A stretch of DNA of 64,000 nt from Microcoleus sp. FACHB-68 (lineage in GTDB: Bacteria; Cyanobacteriota; Cyanobacteriia; Cyanobacteriales; Oscillatoriaceae): assembly GCF_014695715.1 (NCBI RefSeq), contig NZ_JACJOT010000013.1, forward strand, positions 434,001 to 498,000. Direction: 5' to 3'. Below the pieces are notes generated by a model. That model did not search any database. It saw only the letters and a program-made list of their open reading frames with translations, and was not told the origin of the DNA. The translations under genes and the position numbers were made by a program. Position 1 is the stretch's first letter, and every line of letters starts with the position of its first letter. Below, one piece after another: positions 3,501-54,835 of this stretch.

Positions 3501-6500
3501 GAAGAAGCGCTTCGGGAAAGCGAAGCGATGCTATCGAGCATTTTTGATAACGCCGGCGCTTATATTTTCATTAAGGACTTAGATAGTCGCTACACCTACG
3601 CTAACCGTCCCATCTTGGAATTATTTGGCTGTAGCAAAGAAGAGATTATTGGTGCAGATAATTCCAAGTTTTTTGATGCAGAAACAGCTCAACGCTTGCG
3701 AGAAAGTGATTTGCAGGTTATTGAGAGCGGCGAGGTGTGGCAATCCCAAGAAGTTGCTATCAGGAAACACTCTGGGGAGGTGCATTACTATTGGGCCGTG
3801 AAAGTTCCCCTTAAACGCGCCGATGGGAGTATTTACGCTCTTTGCGGGATCTCAACCGAGATTACCGAACTGAAACGAACAGAAGAAGCGCTACGGCACA
3901 GCGAATCAACGCTTCGCAGCTTCTTTGATAGTGGCTCGATGTTGATGGGCATTGTTGAGCTTTATGACGACGACATTCTGCATCTTTCCGATAACTTATC
4001 AGCAGCGCGGTTTTTCAACACGACCCCAGAACTGATGAAAAATCGGTTCGCAAGTGACTTGGGAGTGCCGGCAGCACACCTACAACAGTGGATTGATCGC
4101 TACCGAGAAGCTTTACACACTCAAGCTGCCGTGCAATTTGAATATACTCACGAGACTTCAAGCGAGCAGAAGTGGCTTTCTGTAAGCGTTTGCCCGATTG
4201 GAACCGGCCCTAGCGGTCGTCCGAGATTGTCTTACATTGTTGAGGACATCAGCGAGCGCAAATGGGCAGAAGAGGCTCTACAGTTAAGCGAAAGCCGGCT
4301 CAAACATCTAACGGCTAGTATTCCGGGAACCCTTTACGCCTATGCACATTATCCTGATGGTTCAGCCAAGTTTGAATATATCAGTCTCGGTTGCCAAGAA
4401 ATGTTTGAGGTCGAGCCGGCACGGGTCATAGACGATGAAAATCTTATGTTGAACCAAATGTGCCCCTATGACCGACCCAGGTATGAAGAGGCTGTTGCTC
4501 GCGCCATTCAAAACGTGCAACCGTTTACTTCCGAATGGCGCAATATTGCTCCTTCTGGAAAACAAACATGGCTGCGCGTCCAAGCCCAACCGGAATGCCG
4601 TGAAGATGGCACTAAAGTTTTGCACGGCGTGATATTAGATATCACGGATCGCAAACAAGCGGAAGAAAAGCTTAAACAGGCCGAGCATAAATATCGCACC
4701 TTAATCGAACAAATTCCAGGCGTTGTTTATATCTCTGCGATTGCAGCAACGACTGAGCAAGCTTATATCAGCCCTCAAGTGCAACAGTTGCTAGAGATTT
4801 CTCCCGAAGAATGGTCTCCTGGGTTCTGTAATAGTTGGACTAATTATGTGCATCCAGAAGATCGCCATCGGGTTTGGCAAGCCGTAAACACTGCGATTTC
4901 GACGGGAGAACCATTGAGTGTCGAATATCGCATGATTACTGGTAATGGCAAAACGATCTGGATTAGAGATCGTGCCCATCTCGTTTCGTCTGCCGGCGGA
5001 CAGACTCAAGTGCTTCAGGGTTTAGCTTTCGATATTACCGACCGCAAGCAAATGGAGCAAGCCCTGCAAGAGAGCAACGAACGTTTTCAGCTAGCAGCAT
5101 CAGCAGTTAAAGGATTTATCTACGATTGGGATCTCAAACAGAATATCGTTCTAAGGACACAGGGACTATTTGAAGCCGTTGGATACCGCCCCGAAGAAGC
5201 CGAAGCTAAAGTTGATTGGTGGAACGAACAAGTCCACCCAGAAGATTTAGCCAAGGTTTCCCAGCAGCTATCCGTAGCATTTGCTAGTGAAACTCAAAAT
5301 TACTACGTGTTAGAATACCGACTTCGCCATCGAGATGGTCACTACGTTTACCTATCAGATTATGGGACGATCGCCAGAGATGCAAACGGACAAGCGATTC
5401 GAGCAGTCGGTCACGCAATAGATGTTAGTGATCGCAGAGAGGCAGAAGCCGCCTTGCAAAAAGCACTCCAAGCTGCCCAAGCCGCATCCATTGCTAAAAG
5501 CCGCTTTCTGTCTAATATGAGCCACGAACTGCGTACCCCTCTCAACGCCATTCTTGGTTTTAGTCAGGTGATGGTTCGCAGCCATTCTCTTTCCGCTGAA
5601 CACAAAGAGCAGTTAAAAATCATCAATCGCAGTGGCGAACATTTGCTTAATTTAATCAACGATATTCTGTCAATGTCCAAAATTGAAGCCGGTCAGACCA
5701 CGCTCAACCAAACTCGCTTTGACCTGTATCAGCTACTTGACAATTTAGAACAGATGCTTAAAATAAAAGCGACTTTCAAAGGGTTACAGCTAATCTTTGA
5801 ACGGGCATCAGATATTCCTCAATACGTGCAAACTGATGAAAATAAATTGCGTCAAGTCTTAATTAACCTGCTGGGAAATGCTGTTAAATTCACGACGGTT
5901 GGTCATGTCGCATTGCGAGTCAAAAAACGCGAACTTTTAGAAGTTAAGGATCGGGTACTAGAAAAAGCTTACTTTCAACATCTAAAAGTTGAAACTTGTC
6001 TATTATTTGAAGTTGAAGATACGGGACCCGGTATTGCCTCCCCTGAAATTGAAACTTTATTTAACCCTTTCGTGCAAACAGAAACGGGACGCAAATCAAT
6101 GGAAGGAACTGGGTTAGGGTTACCTATCAGTCGGCAGTTTGTACAGATGATGGGAGGAAATATTACAGTCAGCAGTCAAGTCTCCAAAGGAACCATTTTT
6201 AAATTTGATGTTCTTGTGCGCGAGGTTGTTGGGATTGATGAAAAAAGTTTATCGAACACCCAGCGAGTGATTGGATTAGAACCAAACCAGCCAACCTATC
6301 GTATCCTGGTGGTGGAGGATGTGGAAGAGAACCGTCAGTTGCTATTAAAATTGCTTGAACCTTTAGGATTTCAAGTGCGAGAAGCGGTTAACGGTGATGA
6401 AGCAATTGCTTTGTGGTCAACTTGGAAACCGCACCTGATCTGGATGGATATGCGGATGCCAGTTATGGATGGTTACGAAGCAACTAGAAAAATTAAAGCT

Positions 6501-6965
6501 TTGGAACAGCAAAATGCGGGGGTACAAGAGAATAATAGCTTGACTCTGGCCGGCAGAACTAAAATTATTGCTGTAACCGCTAGTGCTTTTGAGGAACAGC
6601 AAGCTAGAATTTTGGCAGCCGGTTGCGACGACTTCATACATAAGCCTTTCCGGGAGTCGCTACTGTTCGACAAGATAGCTCAACACCTCAAAGTGCGCTA
6701 TATCTACGAAGAAGACTATCAAAGCGACTCACCTCAGTTAGAAGCGCCCAGAAAACTTACCCCACAAGATTTGAGCATCATGTCTCCTGAGTGGATAGCG
6801 CAGCTACACCAAGCAATACTTTGTGCAAATGAACCCTTAATTTTGAAGCTAATCGAACAAATTCCCGATGCTGAAGCTTCTTTAGCCCATAATCTTACGG
6901 ATTTGCTCAATAATTTTCGTCTGGATCTGCTTTTTGATTTAACTCAAGAATTTAATCATGAGTAG
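540..6965 (+). CDS. Ethylene-receptor-like multi-PAS hybrid histidine kinase
   Basis: A 2141-residue membrane sensor kinase. Residues about 25-120 form three membrane helices matching the plant ETR1/cyanobacterial ethylene-binding domain: SDSIIALAYYSIP holds D35, Y42, I45 and P46, and CGTTH holds C75 and H79, the counterparts of the ETR1 copper and ethylene-site residues. Coiled coil follows to about 185, then eleven PAS/PAC units (about 190-1630), each closing with a DITxRK-type motif. Next come a HisKA box with phospho-accepting H1662 (SHELRTPLN), a HATPase domain (DTGPGI, GTGLGL) and a receiver with D1970. It should autophosphorylate and pass phosphate to its own receiver. The stop overlaps the next gene, a diguanylate cyclase. 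Ligand identity is inferred from the conserved residues; the PAS domains could bind other cofactors. The ATG follows an A-rich stretch without a strong Shine-Dalgarno. Confidence 0.9.
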   Translation: MLELFKNLFAWEPFLPHGHCFLWKPGLVGLHIVSDSIIALAYYSIPITLLYFVRKRQDLPYSWMLLLFSTFILACGTTHLMEIWTLWHPTYWLSGCLKAITAFVSLLTAVEMLLLVPKALALPNPVQMEATNEELEHEIGERKLAEAALKQARSELEVRVKERTAQLAKANQELRHEISDRKQAQSALQASEARLKEVLDNTGAFISSGRIHPDKLWEYDYYSPNGEEIFGYKGEEFAADPSLWFCRIHAEDIETIILPIMEDLYAGCQINIEYRFRHKNGSWRWLYNNLVAKKYESEDFWFLTGIVIDITNRKQAETALQESEQRFAALAEAAPVGIFRTDAQGNCVYGNERCFEMIGLCLEESIGAGWTTTIHPDDRDCTIAAWLSFVQQGIPYHCEHRFQRPDGSVIWVLGQAIAEKDAEGNIIGYIGTITDITERKQAEQLLKDYNQVLEFQVQERTAELSRMNTYLEQKIEERKQIEAQLRRSEAKLSAILDNAGVCIYIKDLNGTYTYVNRLTAELFGRNESEIIGANDRDFFAEEFAVTYRENSAQVIKTGVVHRFEEVGIDCQGELHNYLSTKVPLKNSDGDIYAICGISTDITEIKKAEAALRQSEERMQALLRAIPDLMFRHRVDGTYLDIAGNDSSLLLPREALIGKKIQQTPIPEPIKTGLLERFKAAVATGTLQIYEHDLKQPDGMHSYETRIMKSSADEVVCLVRDITERKHSQAALEESKERYRTVIAAMAEGIVLQDADGAIQTCNLSAKRILGLSCQQMMGRTSLNAGWRSVREDGSLFPEEEHPALITLRTGTACSNVVMGVHKPDSSFTWISINSRPLFRAGEPLPYAVVASFADISARKQAEAALRQSEARYLAIIEDQTELIGRASPDGTLRFVNEAFCRFYGKTREELVGHCFEPDVLEEDRENVTRLIKTLSVDNPLVIIEHRVTAKGQQVRWTQWINRGIFDEEGQLLELQGVGRDITERKEMEEALRESEAMLSSIFDNAGAYIFIKDLDSRYTYANRPILELFGCSKEEIIGADNSKFFDAETAQRLRESDLQVIESGEVWQSQEVAIRKHSGEVHYYWAVKVPLKRADGSIYALCGISTEITELKRTEEALRHSESTLRSFFDSGSMLMGIVELYDDDILHLSDNLSAARFFNTTPELMKNRFASDLGVPAAHLQQWIDRYREALHTQAAVQFEYTHETSSEQKWLSVSVCPIGTGPSGRPRLSYIVEDISERKWAEEALQLSESRLKHLTASIPGTLYAYAHYPDGSAKFEYISLGCQEMFEVEPARVIDDENLMLNQMCPYDRPRYEEAVARAIQNVQPFTSEWRNIAPSGKQTWLRVQAQPECREDGTKVLHGVILDITDRKQAEEKLKQAEHKYRTLIEQIPGVVYISAIAATTEQAYISPQVQQLLEISPEEWSPGFCNSWTNYVHPEDRHRVWQAVNTAISTGEPLSVEYRMITGNGKTIWIRDRAHLVSSAGGQTQVLQGLAFDITDRKQMEQALQESNERFQLAASAVKGFIYDWDLKQNIVLRTQGLFEAVGYRPEEAEAKVDWWNEQVHPEDLAKVSQQLSVAFASETQNYYVLEYRLRHRDGHYVYLSDYGTIARDANGQAIRAVGHAIDVSDRREAEAALQKALQAAQAASIAKSRFLSNMSHELRTPLNAILGFSQVMVRSHSLSAEHKEQLKIINRSGEHLLNLINDILSMSKIEAGQTTLNQTRFDLYQLLDNLEQMLKIKATFKGLQLIFERASDIPQYVQTDENKLRQVLINLLGNAVKFTTVGHVALRVKKRELLEVKDRVLEKAYFQHLKVETCLLFEVEDTGPGIASPEIETLFNPFVQTETGRKSMEGTGLGLPISRQFVQMMGGNITVSSQVSKGTIFKFDVLVREVVGIDEKSLSNTQRVIGLEPNQPTYRILVVEDVEENRQLLLKLLEPLGFQVREAVNGDEAIALWSTWKPHLIWMDMRMPVMDGYEATRKIKALEQQNAGVQENNSLTLAGRTKIIAVTASAFEEQQARILAAGCDDFIHKPFRESLLFDKIAQHLKVRYIYEEDYQSDSPQLEAPRKLTPQDLSIMSPEWIAQLHQAILCANEPLILKLIEQIPDAEASLAHNLTDLLNNFRLDLLFDLTQEFNHE

Positions 6966-8520
6966 TGACCAAGCATCTACTTTTCCTGAAGATATTCTCA
7001 TCGTTGATGATAGCGCGGACAACCTAAGAGTTTTGTCTACGATACTTGCTGAGCAAGGATATTACGTGAGAAAAGTAATTAATGGAAAACTGGCTTTAAT
7101 AGTCGCGCAAACCGCTCCACCGGCTCTAATTTTACTTGACATTTTGATGCCCGATTTGGATGGCTATGAAGTTTGCCGATTGCTGAAAGCGAACCCACTA
7201 ACAGCGGAAATTCCAGTAATTTTTATCAGCGCTCTTGATGATATATTTGATAAGGTTAAAGCCTTTGATGTCGGCGGAGTGGACTACATTACGAAACCTT
7301 TCCAGGCGGCAGAAATTTTAGCTCGGATTAAAAGTCAATTGACGATTCGAGGCTTTTATATTCAACTGCAACGGCAAGCACAAAAACTCACCGACCAAAA
7401 TAAATGCTTACAACAAGAAATTAAAAAACGCCAACGCGCTGAAGCAGAAACCAATCTTTTATTGAAGATAACGCAAGCAATTAGCGCATCGGAAGATTTT
7501 CCTTCGGCTTTAGAAGTAACTGTTCGCCAAGTTTGCGAAACAATAAGTTGGGATTTGGGAGAAGCTTGGATTCCTGATGAGGAGCGTGAGGTTTTAGAAT
7601 ATAGTCGAAGTTGGTATTCTAGCGAAGCGAACCTAGAAAAGTTTCAACTTGAGAGCAAGACCTTAACCTATGCCCCAAATGTAGGACTGCCGGGACGAGT
7701 TTGGATATCTAAACAACCGGAGTGGATAGAAGATGTTTCTGTTGCCAAAGACCCAGTTTTTTTTCGGTCTGATCTTGCCTTAGAAGCTGGACTCAAAGCA
7801 GCGTTAGGGATTCCTATTGTTCTTAACAACCAAGTCTTAACAGTTTTGATTTTTTTTAAGAAAGAAAAGCTTGAACCCAAACAGCGATTGATTGAGCTAG
7901 TTAATGCCGTTGCTACCCAATTAGGTTCGCTTGTTCAGCGCAAAAAGGCTGAATCCGCTCTCAAAGAAGCTAACCTGAAACTCCACCGGCTTGCGACTTT
8001 GGATGAGTTGACAGGAGTGGCGAATCGTCGTTGTTTTAATGAATACTTGAATCAAGAGTGGCGGCGGATGGCACGAGAGAAATTACCCTTGTCTTTAATT
8101 TTGTGCGATCTAGATTATTTTAAACAATATAACGATACTTATGGTCATTTAGCCGGAGATTTTTGCTTGCAGAAGGTCGCAAAAACAATTCGCTGCACGC
8201 TCAACCGGCCCGGAGATTTAGTTGCTCGTTATGGGGGTGAAGAATTTGTGGTAATTTTGCCGAATACCCATGCTAATGGAGCTTTACAAATTGCTGAAAC
8301 TATGCGAAATGAAGTTGAAAATCTTAAGATGGATCATGCCCAATCTGATATCAGTCAATATGTGACTTTGAGTTTGGGCGTTGTTAGCTTAATTCCTCAA
8401 AATCCACTCAACCCTTCAATTTTAATGGCTGTAGCGGATAAGGCACTTTATCAAGCTAAAGCTCAGGGAAGAAACTGCTCAGTTTTAAAACCTTTGGATT
8501 TAGAAAATTTAGAATTATAA
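6958..8520 (+). CDS. Response regulator with GAF and GGDEF (diguanylate cyclase)
   Basis: 520 residues: a receiver (about 12-130, phospho-acceptor D61 in LILLDILMPD), a short coiled coil, a GAF domain (about 165-315) and a GGDEF domain (about 340-510). The active-site signature is GGEEF, and five residues upstream is an intact RxxD (RPGD) inhibitory site, so an active cyclic-di-GMP synthase with product feedback is expected. The ATG lies inside the end of the upstream kinase gene (ATGAGTAG), implying translational coupling. The natural reading is that the kinase phosphorylates this receiver and so sets c-di-GMP output. The partnership is inferred from the overlap; the domain calls are direct. 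Confidence 0.92.
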   Translation: MSSDQASTFPEDILIVDDSADNLRVLSTILAEQGYYVRKVINGKLALIVAQTAPPALILLDILMPDLDGYEVCRLLKANPLTAEIPVIFISALDDIFDKVKAFDVGGVDYITKPFQAAEILARIKSQLTIRGFYIQLQRQAQKLTDQNKCLQQEIKKRQRAEAETNLLLKITQAISASEDFPSALEVTVRQVCETISWDLGEAWIPDEEREVLEYSRSWYSSEANLEKFQLESKTLTYAPNVGLPGRVWISKQPEWIEDVSVAKDPVFFRSDLALEAGLKAALGIPIVLNNQVLTVLIFFKKEKLEPKQRLIELVNAVATQLGSLVQRKKAESALKEANLKLHRLATLDELTGVANRRCFNEYLNQEWRRMAREKLPLSLILCDLDYFKQYNDTYGHLAGDFCLQKVAKTIRCTLNRPGDLVARYGGEEFVVILPNTHANGALQIAETMRNEVENLKMDHAQSDISQYVTLSLGVVSLIPQNPLNPSILMAVADKALYQAKAQGRNCSVLKPLDLENLEL

Positions 8521-36026: not shown

Positions 36027-36896
36027 ATGGCAAAAGCAGACACCGGCAGCAAACGATTAATCAGTCTAGATCCGAATGGATGGGTGCAATGGGTAACACA
36101 GCGTCCTGATATCGAAGCAGACGAAATTATCAGTTCTGAATTTCAATGGATCGGGCGAGAAAGCGATGTCATCGTCAAAGTAAGCAGCCCGGAAACAGGA
36201 GAATTTCTCGTACTAAACGAGCTACAATTTCGCTATGACACTCGGATGCCAAAGCGGATGCGGGCTTATGCGGCGCTGGCAGAAGAAAAATATAACTTGC
36301 CGGTTTATCCCGTCTTGATTAACATTTTTCAGCCAGAAACAGCCGTCCAAATTCCCAACCGCTATGAATCCAACTTTCTCGGCTTACAAGCACGTCAAGA
36401 TTATCGCGTCATTAACCTTTGGGAAGTAGATGTTGAGGTGGCATTTCAACCGACACTCAAAGCCTTACTTCCCTTTTCTCCCTTACTCAGGGGTGGGGCG
36501 CAGGAATCTGTCGTCGTTCGGGCTATCCAAATCCTACGAAGTGACCAACAGTTAAGCGAGTTGGAAAGCCTCTTAGGTTTCTTTGCCACCTATGTTTTAA
36601 ACCCCGTCCGAATTCAACAAATCGTGAGGTTTGATATGGCAATTTTAGAGCAATCTCCCATGTATCAGCAAATGGTACAGAAAGAGCAGAAACGATTAGC
36701 CTTGCGGATATTGCAACGCCAGCTTCCACGCAAATTTGGAGAGGTGCCGGCTACTGTACAAACTGCCCTAGAAGCCTTAAATGGGGATCAACTAGAGGAA
36801 CTGCTAGAGGTGCTGATTGAAGTCAATTCTCTGGATGCGTTTATCAGTGCAATTCCCGCTGCTGAGGAAAATGAGCCAGGTGAGGCGCTTTTCTAA
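36027..36896 (+). CDS. DUF4351-containing Rpn-like nuclease
   Basis: 289 residues. The N-terminal half (about 20-170) has the Rpn/PD-(D/E)xK layout (FQWIGRESDVIVKV, then LVLNELQFRYDTRMPKRM, an E-x-Q-type catalytic strand). The C-terminal domain is DUF4351 (about 215-280): LRILQRQLPRKFGEVP, then LNGDQLEELLEVLIEVNSLDAFISAIP. Such proteins are common in cyanobacteria and related to transposase-like or recombination-promoting nucleases. It sits 185 bases before the HEAT-NACHT receptor gene; a truncated relative follows that gene (40172-40351). Confidence 0.82.
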   Translation: MAKADTGSKRLISLDPNGWVQWVTQRPDIEADEIISSEFQWIGRESDVIVKVSSPETGEFLVLNELQFRYDTRMPKRMRAYAALAEEKYNLPVYPVLINIFQPETAVQIPNRYESNFLGLQARQDYRVINLWEVDVEVAFQPTLKALLPFSPLLRGGAQESVVVRAIQILRSDQQLSELESLLGFFATYVLNPVRIQQIVRFDMAILEQSPMYQQMVQKEQKRLALRILQRQLPRKFGEVPATVQTALEALNGDQLEELLEVLIEVNSLDAFISAIPAAEENEPGEALF

Positions 36897-37080: not shown

Positions 37081-39954
37081 ATGACTAAACATCGCCGGCA
37101 ATCTCTGTTCGCTGCATTCACCGTTCTTTTCCTGTCTCTGACATTGCCCGTACTGGTAGCCGGCAGTGCTTGGGCGCAAAATCAACGTGGGAAAGATGCC
37201 GGTGTCACACAGGTTGCGCCCCTGATCGAGAAATTAAAAACCGCTGATGAATTTAACCGTGACGAAACGATTGAAGCGTTAGCCAAACTTGGCGCACCCG
37301 CCGTTCCCCAACTCATCAAAGCCTGGGAATCTGATAATTTGCTAGTCCGCCAAGGTGCAGGCGATGCACTGGAAAAAATCGGTGAGCCGGCTGTCCCGGC
37401 CCTGATCAAAGCCTTGGAGTCCAAGAATAAGCGAGTGCGCTGGCTAGCGGCTGCTGCGCTAGGTGACACCGATAACAGTGAAGGCGTTCCGGTTCTTGTC
37501 AAAGCACTAAAAGATCCGGATACACGAATGCGCCGTATTGCTGCCCAGTCTCTAGTAGGAATGAGCTTCGATAGCTCAAAGTCGGCAGCATTGTCGGCAG
37601 CATTCAAAGCCGCTGTCCCCGACTTGGTTAACGCTCTCAATGACAAAGATGCAGACGTGCGTAGCCATGCGGCTTGGTCGTTGGTGTGGATGGGCATAGA
37701 AGCCAAAGCTGCTGTCCCTGACTTGGTTAACGCTCTTAACGACAAAGATGCCTACGTGCGTAGCAGTGCCGCTTCTGCCTTAGACAGCATCGGCACAGAA
37801 GCCAAAGCTGCTGTTCCCGGCTTGATTAACGCTCTTAAAGATGAAAATGCTCGCGTGCGTGCCAATGCCGCTTCTGCCCTGGGGAGCATCGGCACAGAAG
37901 CCAAAGCTGTTGTCCCTGACTTGGTTAACGCTCTTAACGACAAAGATGCAGACGTGCGTGGCAATGCCGCTTCTGCCTTGGGGAAGATCGGCACAGAAGC
38001 CAAAGCCGCTGTCCCTGACTTGGTTAACGCTCTCAAAGATGAAAATGCCTACGTGCGTAGCCGTGCCGCTTCTGCCTTGGGGAAGATCGGCACAGAAGCC
38101 AAAGCCGCTGTCCCTGACTTGGTTAACGCTCTCAAAGATGAAAATGACGAGGTGCGTGGCAATGCCGCTTCTGCCTTGCAAAGCATCGCGCTTAGCCTTC
38201 AAGAAAAAGCAAACACCCTATCACCAAAGGAGTTGGATAAAACAATCTCAGACTTGGAGGCAGCTTTAAAAATCCTCGAAGCGCCTAAAGCTGAATTCTC
38301 AGCAGACAATATTAGAACTTTTCATCTGTCCCTCAACGCCCTCAAAGCCCAAAGAAATGCCAATTTAACCTATTGGATTCAGCAAAATCCCTGGCGAGCC
38401 GGCATCCTTTTCTATCTCCTCTTCTTCCCCTCCCTATGGTTAACAATTTTCTGGCTGCGTCCCCGGTGGCTGTTGCGAATTAACGACGCCCTCAAACCCT
38501 ACGAATTTAAACTCCCTGAAACCTTGGGAGGCGCACCCATCCGCATTCGTGACCTCACGTTTTTCAGTCTTTTTGTTTACCATCCCAGAGTTCTTGATGC
38601 CTGGGTTGCTAAACATATCGAAACATTCCATGAAGAATTTAGCAAGCTAGAAACCGTCAAACGTCGTGCCACCTACGTCCCCGTTGATGTTGAACTCGAC
38701 GATAAAAAAATTTCCTTAGAGGCTACAGAGTTGCAAGCTACCTTCAACAAAAAGCGTATCTGCTTGCTGCTCTATGGCGAAGGCGGCATTGGCAAAACCA
38801 GCATCGCTTGTCAGATGGCACTGTGGGCAATGGAGTCAGATCAAACCAAACGTCTCTGCAAACACCGGCAGCTTCCCATTCTCATAGAAGAAGAACTCAG
38901 CACCCAAATTCCCCAAGGCAAACATCCGTTTCTAGAAGCGATTCGAGGAAAGCTGAAAACCCTCACCCACCATCCCCAAGCGATTGATGAAACCCTGGTA
39001 AAAAAATTGCTGGAACAACGCCGCCTTCTGGTCATCGTAGACCACTTTTCAGAAATGACCGAAGCCACGCAAAAGCAAATTGACCCGGATTCATCAGAAT
39101 TTCCCATCAATGCTTTAGTCGTTACTTCGCGGCTGAAAAGCAGCCTCGGCAAAGATAGCAAAACCACGATTCAACCCCAGAAAATACAAGGCGCTAAGCT
39201 TGCAGATTTCATGGAAAAATACTTGGATAAACTGGGTAAACCATCTCTATTGAAAGGGCCTGATTTTCACAAATTATGCGCTGACTTTGCCAGACTCTTA
39301 GAAGAGGCAGAAAGGCAACAAAGAAGTACCACAGTTTTATTGGCTAGATTGTATGCTGATTTAGTGATAGCCAGAAAAGAAGGCAAAAAAGATGAGAATT
39401 TGCCGGAAACAATCCCTGATTTGATGTTAGAATATGTCAATGAAATTAACCGGGATGTCGCAACAAACCGGCTCGATGAGCGCACGGTTCATGCCGATGC
39501 CAAAGCCATCGCTTGGGAATGCTTGAAACCCACTTACAAACCGGCAACTGCTAAATTTAAAGATGCGATAGCGGCGCTCTCTGCCTTAAACCCGCAAGAC
39601 GTAGAAATTCGCCTCAAATATCTGGAAGAAACACTCCGCCTGATTCAAACCGTAGGCGCAGCAAAAGAAGACATCCGGTTTACCCTCGATCCGGTAGCTG
39701 AATATCTAGCCGGTTTGCATTTAATTGATGTTTATGGCAATAACGATAGCAAATGGCAAGGTTTCTTAACCGTAGCTGAATCACAACCGGGTTTTCCCGA
39801 TGCGATTAAAGGCTTTTTGCTGGCAGTACGCGATTGCTATTTAACAAAAATTCCAGGCGCAAAAAATAGCGATTTTCTCCCCAAAGAAATTGAACATCGC
39901 TGTATTCCCAGTGCCCCACCGGCACCTGTACAGCCCGTGCCAGTGTCCCCGTAA
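37081..39954 (+). CDS. Transmembrane receptor: exported HEAT repeats, membrane helix, cytoplasmic NACHT NTPase
   Basis: 957 residues from ATG 37081, which gives an excellent signal peptide ([20 protein letters not shown], cleavage near SAWA/QNQR). A TTG 13 codons upstream is an alternative. Residues about 45-385 are HEAT/PBS-lyase-type repeats, including six 33-residue units ([16 protein letters not shown]) at about 176-373. A strong helix (about 439-461, [18 protein letters not shown]) is followed by Arg-rich residues, so by the positive-inside rule the C-terminus is cytoplasmic. It carries a NACHT-type NTPase: Walker A GEGGIGKT with K572, Walker B region [10 protein letters not shown], then a helical tail. 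The reading is a receptor that senses outside and signals through a STAND NTPase inside. No effector domain is recognised; the ligand and partner are unknown. NACHT STAND proteins are known defence sensors, but a defence role here is only inferred. Confidence 0.85.
37606..38199 (+). repeat. Six 99-bp coding repeats inside the HEAT-NACHT receptor
   Basis: Six in-frame 99-bp units encode [11 protein letters not shown]..., ending GTEA, with no length change. Units 4 to 6 are very similar at DNA level, so the block probably grew by recent unit duplication. Sequence changes cluster in the DKDAxVR loop and following helix. Confidence 0.85.
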
Positions 39955-40445: not shown

Positions 40446-42323
40446 ATGTCAGACTCACTGAGCGAGCGCTACCTAGCCTTTATCGAGCAAATTGTTGAAA
40501 TCACCCTCAAAGGGCAAATTCGCTCAAAAGAACAGGTTTATCAAATGCTTGTGGAAGGCATAGAAGCCGGCACTGGCGAAATTTTTGAACGCAGTTTAGA
40601 TGAACAATTAAACACCGCCCAATCTGTAGTAAAAACTGAAAAAGATGAATTAAAGCAAGCCAAAGCCAACCGCCGGCTGAGAGCGATTAAAACGATTCAA
40701 ACCGAGTGGGAACGCTGGCAAAAAGAAAATAGAGTGTCTGGTGCCATTGCATCCGCTATTCAACAAATTCTCAACGCAGATGAGCGTGATCGCCTTACCG
40801 TTGTGTTGCGCGTACTCGATCCTAACCAAAAGCAGCCGCTTACCTTAGAGCAACTGCAACAACTGGCAAAATTATTGCATCAACAACTCACGCAAATTGC
40901 CAACCCCGACTTAGCGCAAGATGTGCAGCAAATTCTCACCGGCATCACCGCAGGATTGGAATCTTGGCAACGACTCGAAGGCAATCTTGTTAGCTGGATT
41001 TACGAAAGACGTAGCCAAATCGGATTTGCCGGCACTCCTGAGCAAAATGGCCCTTGGGCGTTATGGGCAAAACAAGTCAGCAGTCCCTTCCCTAAAGCCT
41101 TATTTAATGCAATTTCCCTCAATCAATCTATCGTTGAAGCCACTGGCAAGCAAGCCAGTTTAGAACCGGCAGCATTAATTGAATTAGCAGTAATTTTGCA
41201 GTGCTTGCAACGAGGTTTAGTTGCCTGGTTTGATAAACTGGTTTATGACTCGAAAGTTGGTGCAAAGCTTTCCATTTCCACCTTCTTAACCTTTGCCGCA
41301 ATTTGGGTTCAGTTAGCCAATGGCTTTGAGCGAGCAACCAGCCTTAATTCCAGTAATCGAGAACGCTTAGCCAATGGCTGTTTTCAAGTTACATTACAAA
41401 TTCTCCGAGCTTTCTCTCAACGCGAATACTTTCCGCTTTATGGGGGAATTTTTGCCTCGTTTTCAGGTAGCTACTTGCGAAATACACTCGATTATCTGAG
41501 TGAACCGCTGCGACAAGTGGAAGGAACCCAAGAAAAAGCTCGAATCCTCACACTTTTAGGCTATTCACAACACGCTCAAGGTCGTTATGAGCAGGCAATT
41601 GTCTTTCATGAACAAGCCTTGGAAATTGCCCGTGAAGCCGGTGATCGTCCCTGTGAAATTGCCAATCTCAATCACCTCAGCCGCACCTGCGTTGCTCAAA
41701 AAAACTATGCCGGTGCAATTAGTTACAGTCAACGCGCCCTTATTTATTCTAGGCAAGCCGGTGATCGTTTAGGAGAAGCAAACGCTCTCGCAAATTTCGG
41801 TTTTAGCGAAGTATTCCAAGCCAAACAACAAGAACAATTAGAACCGGAAGTTTATGAGAGTGCGATTAACTACTTAGAGCAAGGTTTGCAATTAGCAGAA
41901 AAATTAGGTGATCGTCAAAGTCAAGCCCTTTGTTTCAGCAGTCTCGGCATCGCTCACGTTGTTTTAGATCAACCTGAAGAAGCCCTCAACTATCTAACAG
42001 ACGGGTGGAAAACTGCCCAAATGTCAGGAGATTTATATCTACAAGGTCTGAATTTGGCTTACTTAGCGCAAGTTTGCTACAGTTTAACCGCCATTGGCAA
42101 TGCTGTGGCTTACGGTGGTTTGGGAATGTATATTTTAGAGCAAATTGGTGCAAATGAGTGGCGGCAACCGGCAGGCTTGTTGACAATCTTACAGGGTCAA
42201 TTAAGCCTTGAATTTCAAAATCTTTTGGAGCAGAAGCGCCCTACTATCATTGCAGTCATTGGGGTAGATGGCTATGACTACATCCCCGAACTGTTAGAAA
42301 GATACCTGAAATCTTTAGAGTAA
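40446..42323 (+). CDS. TPR-repeat protein
   Basis: 625 residues. The N-terminal half (about 1-330) is helical, with a short coiled coil near 60-95; I do not recognise it. From about 360 to 560 there are roughly five TPRs (ARILTLLGYSQHAQGRYEQAI, EIANLNHLSRTCVAQKNYAGAIS, QALCFSSLGIAHVVLDQPEEAL). It is cytoplasmic by prediction, with no signal peptide or helix. It lies downstream of the HEAT-NACHT receptor and could be its cytoplasmic partner; that is inference from proximity only. The DUF4351 remnant and palindromes separate them. Confidence 0.75.
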   Translation: MSDSLSERYLAFIEQIVEITLKGQIRSKEQVYQMLVEGIEAGTGEIFERSLDEQLNTAQSVVKTEKDELKQAKANRRLRAIKTIQTEWERWQKENRVSGAIASAIQQILNADERDRLTVVLRVLDPNQKQPLTLEQLQQLAKLLHQQLTQIANPDLAQDVQQILTGITAGLESWQRLEGNLVSWIYERRSQIGFAGTPEQNGPWALWAKQVSSPFPKALFNAISLNQSIVEATGKQASLEPAALIELAVILQCLQRGLVAWFDKLVYDSKVGAKLSISTFLTFAAIWVQLANGFERATSLNSSNRERLANGCFQVTLQILRAFSQREYFPLYGGIFASFSGSYLRNTLDYLSEPLRQVEGTQEKARILTLLGYSQHAQGRYEQAIVFHEQALEIAREAGDRPCEIANLNHLSRTCVAQKNYAGAISYSQRALIYSRQAGDRLGEANALANFGFSEVFQAKQQEQLEPEVYESAINYLEQGLQLAEKLGDRQSQALCFSSLGIAHVVLDQPEEALNYLTDGWKTAQMSGDLYLQGLNLAYLAQVCYSLTAIGNAVAYGGLGMYILEQIGANEWRQPAGLLTILQGQLSLEFQNLLEQKRPTIIAVIGVDGYDYIPELLERYLKSLE

Positions 42324-50641: not shown

Positions 50642-51256
50642 CGGGATCGAGCCTCCTAAAACTTTTATTTTTTGACGCGGACAGTTAGTATTGTTTATGT
50701 AAACTAATATTAACCGATTTTCAGCTAAATGCGGTAGTGGGGTATTGGAGCCGGCAGATTAAGAGGGTAAAGCTGCGTCTGGTAAGGATTTGAGACGTTA
50801 AGCTTGAGAAGTGTCTGCTGGGGTTGCTAGGCGGTGGCAGGGTTCACGTCTGTTGATTTCCCTGCCGGTATCTGCTTAGTTGTTCTGCCGGCACAATGTC
50901 CAGCGCGATGGCTGCTCTCATTTGGGAAGAGTGGCAAGGTGACTGGTTACATTCTTAGCGTAGCGTGTGCATTTATGAGATTGCCGGTTGTTATTCATAT
51001 TCTGTAACGTTGAGCGTTTCACTGTGCCGGCAATGGGGATAAATTTTTAACCACAGATAAACACAGATAGTTTCTTCGTGTTGTAGCGTTGGCTAGCGAA
51101 GCCTAGTCTCTGTTTCCCGCCTATTACCCACTTAATCGGCAGAGGTGTTAGAAGAGTTGTTTGCGGAAGATAATTAAGTTTCCTTCTCTTTCACCCTAGA
51201 GGTTGGGTGAGGCTGAGTATGCTATTGATATCGGCAACTGCACCCATCTGTTACTT
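50642..51256. other. Intergenic region with GCCGGC clusters and repeat copy 6
   Basis: Holds the divergent promoters of ftsH and the NACHT-HEAT gene. Several TGCCGGC/GCCGGCA sites are scattered here, and one dispersed repeat lies at 51044. No gene was found; the open frame upstream of the ATG at 51257 starts at TTG 51203 and is probably untranslated. Confidence 0.5.
51044..51070. repeat. Dispersed CAGAT intergenic repeat, copy 6 (short)
   Basis: TTTTTAACCACAGATAAACA then CAGATAG. This is the half-element form of the family seen at 10902, 22913, 32034, 34075 and 34851, lying 187 bases upstream of the NACHT-HEAT start. Confidence 0.65.
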
Positions 51257-54200
51257 ATGAATCAACCGCGTAAACCTCACGGTGCCCCTGCCAAACCAGA
51301 GGCGATTAACTGGCGTGAAGTCTGCCGCAAAATGCTGCAATCGCGCCGACAACTTGCCAGCAATTTGTTGATCTCTGGTATTGAAATCACCATTAAAGAT
51401 GAATTGGGTAACATTGAAGATGATTTTTTGAACAATGTCCTTGCTAAGGGACAAAGTTACAAAAGCGGCGGCAAACGCCTGACGATTATTGGCGAACCCG
51501 GTGTGGGAAAAACCACGCAGTTATTAAAAATTGCGGATTGGTTGCTGGATGATACCCCAAGCGATACAGAAACCGAGTTTGTTAAACCGCTACCGATTTG
51601 GATTTCCTTGGCGCAGGTGAAAAAACCCTTGCACCAGTATTTAAGAGAAGATTGGTTGCGCGAGGCGGCGAAAGAATTGGATAGTGCCCCATCGGCATGG
51701 GTGGAAGAATTTACACAATTGCTGAAAGATGGAAAAGTGTGCTTGCTGCTGGATGGTGCGGATGAAATGGGGGTTCCCGCTCTACTAGGAACGCTGGCGC
51801 AATCGCGTATAAGTCCATTGTTGAACAACGTGCTGATGGTGATCAGTTGCCGGCTTAATGTTTGGGAAGCGGCGGGAAATACGTTGGGGGGTACGTTATG
51901 GTATTTTGACACTTATAAAATGCTGGGTTTCAGTTATAGAGAAAGCAGCAACCGGGATCAGGTCAAACAATTTATTGATAAATGGTTTAACAAGTATTCC
52001 TCAATTCTCTCTGATGTGGAAAGGAGCAAGGGAAGTCAATTACGCGCCGCATTAAACGAATCCGGAAAAGAGCGAATCAAAGATTTAGCCCGCTATCCGC
52101 TGCATTTGTCGCTACTGTGCTTCACCTGGCAATCTAGGCAAAGAAAATTGCCCGATACGAAAGCCGAACTTTATCAGATATTTGTTGAGGCGCTTTATGA
52201 GTCTAAAAACAGTGTTTATCCTACCACCCCAGCGCAGCGGAAAAACTTAAATGCTGCCCTTGGACAGTTGGCGATGAAGGCAATTGATCAGGGATACAAA
52301 TCAATTTTGCCCTACAGTTTAGTCAACGAAGCGCTAGAGAAATTGCATCCAGAATTATTTGAGCAAGCCCTCACCTTGGGTTGGCTGAATCCTGTGGGGG
52401 GTGACACCCTAAACCCACTCAAATCTGCTTACGTTTTTTATCATCCCACGCTTCTAGAATATTTTGCTGCGTGTGAAATTGAGGATTGGCAATTTTTCTT
52501 GAAACCCTTACCCCACAACATCGAGCGAGACAATTACCGCATCTTTGAACCGCGATGGAAAGAGGTATTTTTGCTATGGTTGGGGCGTTTGGATGTGCCG
52601 GCAGAACAGAAAGAGGAGTTGATTAATTCTTTAATTGAGTTTGAGGATAGGTGCGGCGACTGGGACGCTATTGATAGAGCAAATAAAGGATTCTATGAAT
52701 TTAGAGCCTATTTTCTAGCAGCAGCCGGTATAACTGAATTTTGCCAGTATTCTAAAAGCGATGAAATAGTTAGACAAATCGTTAAATGGGGCTTTGGTTA
52801 CGTTAACAAACAACAGGAGTGGCAAACCTATCTCAATCCTATTCAAGAGGCAGCGAGAGACGTGTTGCCCCAGACACAGCGATCCAAAGTGATCACCGCT
52901 TTAGTCGAGTTAACCTGCACCTGTCAGCCTGAAGGAACTCGCAGGATGGCGGCAGAAAGTTTAGGGAATATCGACCCTGGTAACTCTGATGCCATCGGTG
53001 CTTTAGTCGAGTTAATAGGTAATTCTCAATCCCCAGAAACTCCAAAGATGGCGACAGAAAGCTTGGTGAATATCGGCACCGGCAACCCAACTGCTATCGG
53101 TGCTTTAGTCGAGTTCATAGGCAACTGTCAGTCTGAAGATACCTGCTGGAGGGTGGCAGAAAGCTTAGGGAAAATCGACCCTGGTAACTCTGATGCCATC
53201 CGGGCTTTAGTCGAGTTGACCCGCAATTCTCAGTCTGAATTTACCCGCAGAATGGCGGCAGAAAGCTTAGGGAAAATCGGCACCGGCAACTCTGATGCCA
53301 TCCGTGCTTTAGTCGAGTTAATTTGCAACTGTCAGGATAAATATACCCGCAGTCGGGCGGCATATAGCTTGAGGGAAATCGGCACCGGCAACCCAGATGC
53401 CATCGCTGCTTTAGTCGAGTTAACTCGCAACTGTCAGGATAAATATACCCGCAGGATAGCAGCAGGATGCTTGGAGGAAATTGGCATTGGCAACCCAGAT
53501 GCCATCGCTGCTTTCGTCGAGTTAATTCACAACTCTCAGTCTGAAAGAATGCGCTATTGGGCGGCAGAAAGCTTGGGGAATATCGACCCTGGTAACTCTG
53601 ATGCCATCGCTGCTTTCGTCGAGTTAATTCGCAACAGTGAGTCTGAAGGAATGCGCTATTGGGCGGTAGACAGCTTGAGGAATATCGACCCTGGCAACTC
53701 TGATGCCATCACTGCTTTAGTCGAGTTAATTCGCAACTGTCAGGATGAAGAAATCCGAGGGATGGCGGCAGGATGCTTGGGAAATATCGGCACCGACAAC
53801 TCTGATGCCATCACCGCTTTAGTCGAGTTAATTCGCAACTGTCAGTCTGAAGATACGCGCAGTCAGGCGGCATATAGCTTGGAGTACATCGGCACCGGCA
53901 ACCCAGATGCCATCACTGCTTTAGTTGAGTTAACCCGCAACAGTGAGTCTGAAGATACCCGCTATTGGGCGGCAAAATGCTTGAGGAAACTCGACCCTGG
54001 CAACTCTGATGCCATCGCTGCTTTAGTCGAGTTAACTCGCAACTGTCAGGATGAAGATACCTACAGGATGGCGGCAGGATGCTTGGGAAATATCGGCACC
54101 GGCAACCCAGATGCCATCAGTGCTTTAGTCGAGTTAATTCGCAACTGTCAGTCTGAAGATACGCGCAGTCAGGCGGCCTATAGCTTGGAGTACATCGGCA

Positions 54201-54835
54201 TCGGCAACCCAGATGCTATCACCGCTTTAGTCGAGTTAACCCGCAACTGTCAGTCTGAAGATACCCGCTATTGGGCGGCAAAATGCTTGGGGAAACTCGA
54301 CCCTGGCAATAGAGATGCTATCCGTGCTTTAGTCGAGCTAGTTACTAACTCTCAGGATGAAGATACCCACAGTCGGGTGGCAGAATGCTTGGAGTATATC
54401 GGCATCGGCAACCCAGATGCTATCCGTGCTTTAGTCGAGCTAGTTACTAACTCTCAGGATGAATACACCCGCTGGAGGGTAGCAGAAAGCTTGCAGAAAG
54501 TCGATCCAGGCAACACTGATGCTATCCGTGCTTTAGTCGAGCTAATTGGCAATTCTCAGCATGACGAAGCCAGATGGAGGGCAGTACATAGCTTACAGGA
54601 GATTGTGGCGACACAGAAGCAACTGCTGAAGGTTGTCTCTGCTGTGAAAGATTGTTTATCCGATGAAACTTACGAAAATGACTTGATAGGATTCTATGAA
54701 TACTACAAAGTCATCTGGCAATGCGCCCAAAGTCTACCCTACCCAGACTTTTATCAAGCTTGGCACCGGCAGCCCCCCACCCATCCGGAAATGCCAGACA
54801 TCACCACTTGGGGAAACACCCCAGAGGCACAATGA
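51257..54835 (+). CDS. NACHT STAND NTPase with long C-terminal HEAT array
   Basis: 1192 residues from ATG 51257 (TTG 51203 is an alternative). A short helical N-terminus (about 1-75) has no recognised effector fold. The NACHT domain follows: Walker A GEPGVGKTT (G79-T87, K85), Walker B CLLLDGADE (D166), sensor region VLMVISCRLN, and a winged-helix segment with FYHPTLLEYFAA (about 395). From about 546 to 1117 it is an array of 34-residue HEAT-like units. There is no signal peptide, so it is cytoplasmic. STAND NTPases with repeat arrays act as sensors that oligomerise on ligand binding; several bacterial NACHT proteins are antiviral. A defence role is plausible but not shown by neighbours. Its architecture mirrors the receptor at 37081, with domain order reversed. 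Confidence 0.87.
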   Translation: MNQPRKPHGAPAKPEAINWREVCRKMLQSRRQLASNLLISGIEITIKDELGNIEDDFLNNVLAKGQSYKSGGKRLTIIGEPGVGKTTQLLKIADWLLDDTPSDTETEFVKPLPIWISLAQVKKPLHQYLREDWLREAAKELDSAPSAWVEEFTQLLKDGKVCLLLDGADEMGVPALLGTLAQSRISPLLNNVLMVISCRLNVWEAAGNTLGGTLWYFDTYKMLGFSYRESSNRDQVKQFIDKWFNKYSSILSDVERSKGSQLRAALNESGKERIKDLARYPLHLSLLCFTWQSRQRKLPDTKAELYQIFVEALYESKNSVYPTTPAQRKNLNAALGQLAMKAIDQGYKSILPYSLVNEALEKLHPELFEQALTLGWLNPVGGDTLNPLKSAYVFYHPTLLEYFAACEIEDWQFFLKPLPHNIERDNYRIFEPRWKEVFLLWLGRLDVPAEQKEELINSLIEFEDRCGDWDAIDRANKGFYEFRAYFLAAAGITEFCQYSKSDEIVRQIVKWGFGYVNKQQEWQTYLNPIQEAARDVLPQTQRSKVITALVELTCTCQPEGTRRMAAESLGNIDPGNSDAIGALVELIGNSQSPETPKMATESLVNIGTGNPTAIGALVEFIGNCQSEDTCWRVAESLGKIDPGNSDAIRALVELTRNSQSEFTRRMAAESLGKIGTGNSDAIRALVELICNCQDKYTRSRAAYSLREIGTGNPDAIAALVELTRNCQDKYTRRIAAGCLEEIGIGNPDAIAAFVELIHNSQSERMRYWAAESLGNIDPGNSDAIAAFVELIRNSESEGMRYWAVDSLRNIDPGNSDAITALVELIRNCQDEEIRGMAAGCLGNIGTDNSDAITALVELIRNCQSEDTRSQAAYSLEYIGTGNPDAITALVELTRNSESEDTRYWAAKCLRKLDPGNSDAIAALVELTRNCQDEDTYRMAAGCLGNIGTGNPDAISALVELIRNCQSEDTRSQAAYSLEYIGIGNPDAITALVELTRNCQSEDTRYWAAKCLGKLDPGNRDAIRALVELVTNSQDEDTHSRVAECLEYIGIGNPDAIRALVELVTNSQDEYTRWRVAESLQKVDPGNTDAIRALVELIGNSQHDEARWRAVHSLQEIVATQKQLLKVVSAVKDCLSDETYENDLIGFYEYYKVIWQCAQSLPYPDFYQAWHRQPPTHPEMPDITTWGNTPEAQ
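52892..54604 (+). repeat. 102-bp tandem coding array, 16 full units plus one partial
   Basis: Sixteen contiguous 102-bp units from 52892 to 54523 and a partial one to about 54604, with no insertion or deletion. Each encodes I(T/R/A)ALVELxxNxQxExxR..., a helix-turn-helix, ending in (G/D)(T/P)GN(S/P)DA. Units 9-11 (53708-54013) and 12-14 (54014-54319) are paralogous three-unit blocks; unit 10 and unit 13 differ at 5 of 102 bases by my count. Confidence 0.92.

Follow-up and report, generated by a model that had tools for sequence, protein, structure and literature searches.

The question raised by this locus is whether a single bacterial protein can hold a repeat sensor on one side of a membrane and a STAND-type switch on the other. 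The window analyzed here is a stretch of 64,000 nucleotides from Microcoleus sp. FACHB-68, and one of its genes had been read, in the original prediction, as encoding a signal peptide, an exported HEAT solenoid, one membrane helix, and a cytoplasmic NACHT NTPase. The reading frame, Pfam, and a full-length structure model (mean pLDDT 81.4, pTM 0.48) bear out these parts and their coordinates (Table 1). The ATG start is kept in the relatives, and a TTG located 39 bases upstream is a possible alternative. In addition to HEAT_2 and NCH4, Pfam reports NACHT (1.2e-3) with a score of 19.1 bits, below the cut-off of 26.7; among 11 other family members scanned, seven are above this cut-off, one is equal to it as printed, and three are below. 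The protein begins with MTKHRR, continues with a hydrophobic core that is followed by the site AWA/Q, and then forms about 360 residues of HEAT helices in the full structure model. The layout is real and recurrent: the same domain order is found again in relatives, which places it beyond chance.

Table 1. Features of the gene, in positions of the window
Feature	Positions	Strand	Basis
Whole gene, SP-HEAT-TM-NACHT-NCH4, 957 aa	37081..39954	+	Open frame from ATG to stop, Pfam; relatives with the same order
Signal peptide (residues 1-32), cleavage predicted after AWA	37081..37176	+	Basic n-region, hydrophobic core, A-x-A type site
HEAT solenoid, residues 42-400, predicted periplasmic or lumenal	37204..38280	+	HEAT_2 9.5e-66; modelled helices; no Cys
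Six 33-aa HEAT units, closely alike, hypervariable at some positions	37600..38193	+	DNA identity, pN/pS, in-concert evolution
Single transmembrane helix, residues 441-459, then RPRWLLR	38401..38457	+	Hydropathy 1.92; modelled helix 437-459
Walker A GEGGIGKT, residues 566-573	38776..38799	+	Invariant residues in alignments
Walker B	39025..39054	+	D, S, E invariant in 21/21 alignment rows
Winged-helix-region motif	39679..39711	+	Pattern matched in 33/40 members, 30 with LDP
NCH4, NACHT C-terminal helical domain 4	39784..39900	+	PF22731 3.8e-15

The NTPase had been described as having a normal Walker A and a reduced Walker B. The former is intact, and G566, E567, G569, G571, K572, and T573 are invariant in every row of two alignments (18/18 and 21/21). 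The latter does depart from the usual consensus DGhDE, since the first D and the E are kept and the second D is replaced by S; this is not decay but a conserved family signature, D-x-x-S-E, present in 38/40 members. Sensor 1 has the form T-[ST]-R, also in 38/40. The winged-helix-region motif FxLDPxAEYLA (searched for as an FxL[DEA]PxAEYLA-like pattern, unmatched in seven members) corresponds to FVHKTFQEYL in one cytoplasmic NACHT protein and to FRHQLIQEYY in another. In NLRs, a histidine of the winged-helix domain commonly, though not universally, faces or contacts ADP; the family motif has no His at what is presumably the same position. The best Foldseek matches of the inner half are NOD2 (E 5.7e-11), NLRP3, and NLRC4, over about 490 columns and with a TM-score of about 0.5; a sequence profile searched against the PDB retrieved no NLR and one weak ATPase match. 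Judged by its model, the inner half has the fold of an NLR-type NACHT module.

A survey of HEAT-TM-NACHT proteins found the plan repeatedly within a cyanobacterial family that matches Pfam NCH4. Family matches occur in 10 of the 60 related genomes and in 16 of the 386 sampled genomes of the phylum, the own genome being included in both counts and two of the sixteen (G205 and G232) being represented by fragments only. The own genome has three members; among named records, the nearest is a Microcoleus vaginatus MAG. A further search of genome contigs yielded 10 loci, and an NCH4 search yielded 17 matches in 13/292 genomes, each in a known family frame or fragment. We collected 44 frames and used 40 with a Walker A for a tree of NACHT halves; counts over 40 members leave out L052, a duplicate of L041, and four frames in which no Walker A was matched (L048, L067, L095, and L097).

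The tree separates 31 of the 40 rows, on one side of one branch with support 95/91. These rows, termed class A, include the window protein and have a long segment between the signal peptide and the helix. The nine other rows, termed class B, need not be one clade because the tree root is unplaced; they keep the signal peptide and the helix, and have outside a short linker rich in Pro, Ser, Thr, and Ala (385/728 residues). Scripted placement of HEAT in the 44 frames gave 22 with HEAT only before the helix, 8 with HEAT only after NACHT, and 14 unsorted. Of seven unsorted frames scanned with Pfam, four have HEAT before NACHT (L085, L088, L091, and L093), one has it on both sides (L089), one has it after NCH4 (L095), and one has no HEAT match (L096); the other seven unsorted frames are L042, L048, L067, L086, L090, L094, and L097. 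On this sequence-based sorting, class B is predicted to carry HEAT after NACHT, that is, inside.

Several frames lie at the margins of the family. A signal-peptide-HEAT frame without NACHT (L149:2123-3124, + strand) occurs in genome G039, in which no NACHT match was found and a TPR gene lies about 3 kb from the frame; it may reflect a loss of the switch. A HEAT protein of genome G084 (L145:1383-4301, - strand) has an N-terminus that resembles a lipobox by eye; it also contains hydrophobic segments and matches nSTAND weakly, and the plan may have arisen there with a different switch. Two copies are located on cyanobacterial plasmids: a Nostoc copy (L168:4308-7625, + strand) that is divided between two frames and carries an FGE-sulfatase domain C-terminal to NCH4, and a copy broken near transposases (L169).

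All features of a type I receptor, namely an export signal, an outside domain, one helix, and an inside signalling domain, are predicted in the window protein. Export of the arm is supported by three lines of evidence: (i) the N-terminal signals, (ii) the scarcity of cysteine in the arm, and (iii) a homologue from Rhizobium. As to the first, 39 members have the N-terminus in frame (L053 is left out of this count), and each of them carries a basic residue (K, R, or H) within 14 residues before the hydrophobic core, in agreement with the proposed signal peptide. A loose A-x-A pattern, counted with no shuffled control, is matched in 34/39, and the stricter W-x-Q or xxAQ form in 20/30 class A members; L060, L061, L089, and L090 have no clear cleavage site by eye and may be anchored.

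The helix itself has a hydropathy of at least 1.6 (rounded) in 37/40 members, the weak ones being L086 (1.37), the second copy of L062 (0.98), and L064 (1.36). In L086, a class A frame of genome G312 (5964-8471, reverse strand), the helix between HEAT and NACHT seems to be deleted, which may reflect decay or a different state of the protein. Structure prediction of the inner half (mean pLDDT 85.4, pTM 0.82) returned one long hydrophobic helix. In several relatives another hydrophobic stretch follows the helix, and a second membrane helix there would flip NACHT to the outside; this candidate was rejected, as the stretch is modelled as short strands.

Lysines and arginines flank the helix of the window protein as the positive-inside rule would have it (one before, four after). 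Over 40 members, 16 have more after the helix, 6 have equal numbers, and 18 have fewer, counted with the first segment mis-picked in L053, L042, and the first copy of L062 and the second in L086; family-wide, the rule is uninformative at the helix. This equivocal result favors a topology in which HEAT and NACHT both lie in the cytoplasm behind a non-functional signal peptide, a location that is common for HEAT arrays. Cysteine counts bear on the same alternative. Between the signal peptide and the helix, 31 proteins have 8 Cys in 11767 residues, and 25 of them have none, compared with 220 in 15056 residues of their NACHT parts. The window arm has 0 Cys in 405 residues scored, against 17 in 578 HEAT residues of the cytoplasmic NACHT-HEAT protein at 51203-54835. 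Low cysteine is not unique to exported HEAT, since the predicted-inside HEAT of class B is also poor in it (7 in 2309 residues); among seven other HEAT stretches, counts run from 0 in 549 residues, in a HEAT-only frame that lacks a signal peptide, up to 8 in 512. Set against the basic, hydrophobic start in every member with its N-terminus in frame, the cysteine-rich cytoplasmic protein, and the homologue described below, an all-cytoplasmic arrangement appears highly improbable.

That homologue is a Rhizobium phaseoli plasmid protein (two records; L167:2571-6371, + strand) annotated as YCF48-related, and it has the same NACHT half. It opens with an N-terminal hydrophobic stretch, followed by a PSII_BNR propeller (3.2e-59) and, at 729-747, a hydrophobic segment; its NACHT half aligns with the family by tblastn (27.8% over 90%) and by hhalign (probability 100, E 5e-42) and has no match to Pfam NACHT. 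Its signal peptide was read by eye, and an in-frame upstream start would add basic residues. Propellers of the YCF48 type are usually exported. An unrelated module where the arm would stand is consistent with a receptor whose outside part can be exchanged, and this protein is the strongest independent point for the topology.

We therefore consider it likely, with good confidence, that HEAT lies outside and NACHT inside. The type I plan of the original prediction is supported, by computation, with one amendment: cyanobacteria have plasma and thylakoid membranes, and hence the outside may be the periplasm or the thylakoid lumen, and not the cell surface.

The arm is not only exported by prediction but also diversified. 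The six units of the window gene have a mean DNA identity of 0.81. Artificial, HEAT-like alphaRep binders were varied at positions 18, 19, 22, 23, 26, and 30 (PMC3754942), which make up their binding surface; we matched the alphaRep register to the unit xxVRxxAAxALxxIG ourselves. At these six positions the window gene has pN 0.40 and pS 0.24, and elsewhere pN 0.11 and pS 0.25. Over class A (155 units of 27 genes) the four most variable columns are 19, 26, 22, and 18, whereas positions 30 and 23 rank eighth and ninth, behind 8, 11, and 33. Entropy at framework positions is biased low, because the unit-finding pattern fixes letters at several of them; it fixes none of the six. The positions randomised in alphaRep are thus among the most variable here, in natural arrays and not in an artificial library.

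For ten of the 27 class A genes, those with at least three alike units and taken with equal gene weights, the six positions have pN 0.384 and pS 0.215, a ratio of 1.79 (gene bootstrap 1.33-2.61), and the rest of the unit has pN 0.130 and pS 0.308, a ratio of 0.42; related genes are not independent, and the distances are uncorrected. With the all-site pS as a yardstick the ratio is 1.30 (1.11-1.55), and with the sample thinned to seven genes it is 1.85. It exceeds 1 in nine genes, the exception being L087. In nine genes, no more than 25 of 2000 random draws of six columns have a pN as high as the observed one; in L087 the number is 174/2000. Five class B genes have a ratio of 0.64 by their own pS and 1.23 by the all-site pS; as the class B value depends on the yardstick, and the all-site one gives no difference, no contrast between the classes is claimed.

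Hypervariability is not peculiar to NACHT receptors. Among seven HEAT frames listed without NACHT, three had enough alike units. One of them (L129; L143:3886-5532, - strand, G076) has pN 0.64 and pS 0.27, the largest pN at the six positions found here, and rules out such a restriction; two genes resembling vWA proteins by eye lie near it. The second, L111, lacks hypervariability (pN 0.48, pS 0.67). The third, L134, has a ratio above 1 but is reached by 572/2000 random sets, and proved to be part of the NACHT protein L147. The cytoplasmic NACHT-HEAT protein of the window has pN 0.43 and pS 0.31 at the same repeat positions. Hypervariability is thus a trait of some HEAT arrays and no proof of an outside sensor.

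The repeats of the arm evolve in concert. In three congeneric orthologues the first units correspond one to one (for the window gene, 0.87 to 0.88 between genes and 0.49 within), the inner units are about as alike within as between genes, and the number of units differs; near-relative frames of differing unit number are 975, 943, and 1106 aa long. Fungal NLRs likewise have high internal repeat identity, repeat-number change, and positive selection at interaction surfaces (PMC4986451). This likeness speaks for self or kin recognition in filamentous cyanobacteria instead of pathogen defence, with the solenoid reading a polymorphic envelope protein. Pathogen sensing fits the same pattern, however, and no polymorphic partner gene was identified among the neighbours; we regard allorecognition as distinctly unlikely.

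The reading to which we give slightly better than even chances is a one-protein transmembrane STAND receptor. The HEAT arm, in the periplasm or thylakoid lumen, would use the hypervariable face of its helices to bind a ligand, either a protein or an envelope component; this would cluster the receptor and release ADP-held NACHT modules inside, which could then assemble at the membrane. The output is the weakest step; a partner that diffuses in the cytoplasm might act, or the membrane helices might do so themselves once packed together. Candidate ligands would be phage, competitor, or kin factors. This reading is supported by the patchy presence with fragments, the class A branch, the export signals, the scarce cysteine of the arm, the one long hydrophobic helix in the model, the NLR fold, the excess amino-acid change at the six repeat positions, and the Rhizobium homologue.

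The signal could also run from inside to outside, with NACHT sensing a cytoplasmic trigger, the signal peptide and helix acting as an effector (a pore or an envelope change), and HEAT anchoring or gating it. Class B keeps the membrane part while its HEAT position differs, which makes that part the more constant feature, and HEAT after NACHT, as in the eight scripted frames, is the ordinary position of a STAND sensor. In class A, none of the 22 scripted frames has HEAT after NACHT (L089 is an exception by Pfam), and the outside part is both hypervariable and replaced in Rhizobium; a membrane effector is therefore unlikely.

The neighbourhood offers few clues to a partner. Genes around 43 loci fall into 39 neighbour clusters present in at least three loci, the widest in 10/43, and no effector or partner gene was identified among them; family annotation covered the window genes only, so that a partner may have been overlooked. 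Pfam and PADLOC found no effector domain in the window protein, and no relatives were found in phage records or viral contigs. Because an effector or partner gene was not identified, an immune role is one that we infer. The original analogy to eukaryotic surface immune receptors is plausible, since the solenoid is hypervariable, although the analysis turned up neither a ligand or effector nor a partner gene or a link to phage; a role as a non-self receptor is likewise plausible.

The downstream TPR gene (40446-42323), the most suggestive neighbour, with relatives at 8/43 loci compared, was rejected as a dedicated partner, as it occurs in 36 of the 60 related genomes versus 10 of 60 for the NACHT gene. 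A defence-system label is also unwarranted: PADLOC matched the HEAT part and gave weak ATPase matches, and the NCBIfam matches were below cut-off and mostly to HEAT lyase-type families. Just upstream of the gene (36027-36896, + strand) lies a DUF4351 gene with a weak Rpn-type match, whose relatives are found on either side of the NACHT gene at some other loci.

Much of the neighbourhood is common to several related genomes, and thus the gene looks vertical there. This would suit a regulator of envelope or thylakoid stress with a cellular ligand and no role in conflict, as would the YCF48 modules, which in Pfam bear the name of a photosystem assembly factor. The sparse distribution over the sampled genomes, the fragments, the plasmid copies, and the excess amino-acid change at the six positions argue against such a regulator, which we find improbable.

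Comparison with known systems places the transmembrane receptor apart from its relatives. In the open-access literature searched, we found nothing that describes an exported arm, HEAT or other, linked to NACHT by one helix. Antiphage bNACHT proteins have the order effector-NACHT-sensor with a C-terminal sensor, clade 6 has an NCH1 helical domain, and clade 14 lacks a discernible effector (PMC12169576). The window protein resembles these two clades in the NACHT module, clade 6 in the C-terminal helical domain, and clade 14 in lacking an effector; unlike Avs and bNACHT proteins, it has an N-terminal repeat domain, predicted to be exported, a membrane helix in between, and no effector domain found.

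With the animal NLRs NOD2, NLRP3, and NLRC4 it shares the fold of the NACHT module. Animal NLRs are cytoplasmic with C-terminal LRRs, whereas the window protein has a predicted-exported N-terminal HEAT arm and no His at the winged-helix position. The cytoplasmic NACHT-HEAT proteins (51203-54835 and L147) also combine NACHT with a HEAT array, hypervariable in the former as well, but carry HEAT after NACHT. The one at 51203-54835 (+ strand), the second NACHT protein of the window, lies 11 kb away and is cytoplasmic by sequence: its 16 alike 34-aa HEAT units are Cys-rich, its C-terminus has NCC-H, and its best hydrophobic segment reaches 1.16, so that it differs from the window protein in cysteine content and in lacking a strong hydrophobic segment. 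Fungal NLRs share repeats evolving in concert and repeat-number change (PMC4986451) but have WD, ANK, or TPR repeats and are intracellular. In Thiohalocapsa PB-PSB1, DGR-diversified NACHT/CLec targets are described, one of them predicted periplasmic (PMC10907252). These also fuse a diversified sensor to NACHT; they differ in a lectin fold, in diversification by reverse transcription, and in a sensor that is predicted to share the membrane side of NACHT. With one such prediction on record, the idea of a periplasmic NACHT sensor is not wholly new.

Taken as a family, these proteins may be membrane-spanning and NLR-like, with an evolving, alphaRep-like outside arm that can be exchanged, for instance for a beta-propeller, and with HEAT sensors on opposite membrane sides among the members; we give this an even chance. 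NLR-type switches are known as intracellular sensors, and a variable arm outside joined to an immune-type NACHT inside is not usually thought to be present in the bacterial relatives of animal immune sensors. If true, STAND switches can be operated from across a membrane, and the family would be a natural example of NLR sensing inverted from one membrane side to the other, for which the class B members, with HEAT inside, provide a matched comparison to class A. The repeats would also provide a natural set of binders for a direct search for the ligand.
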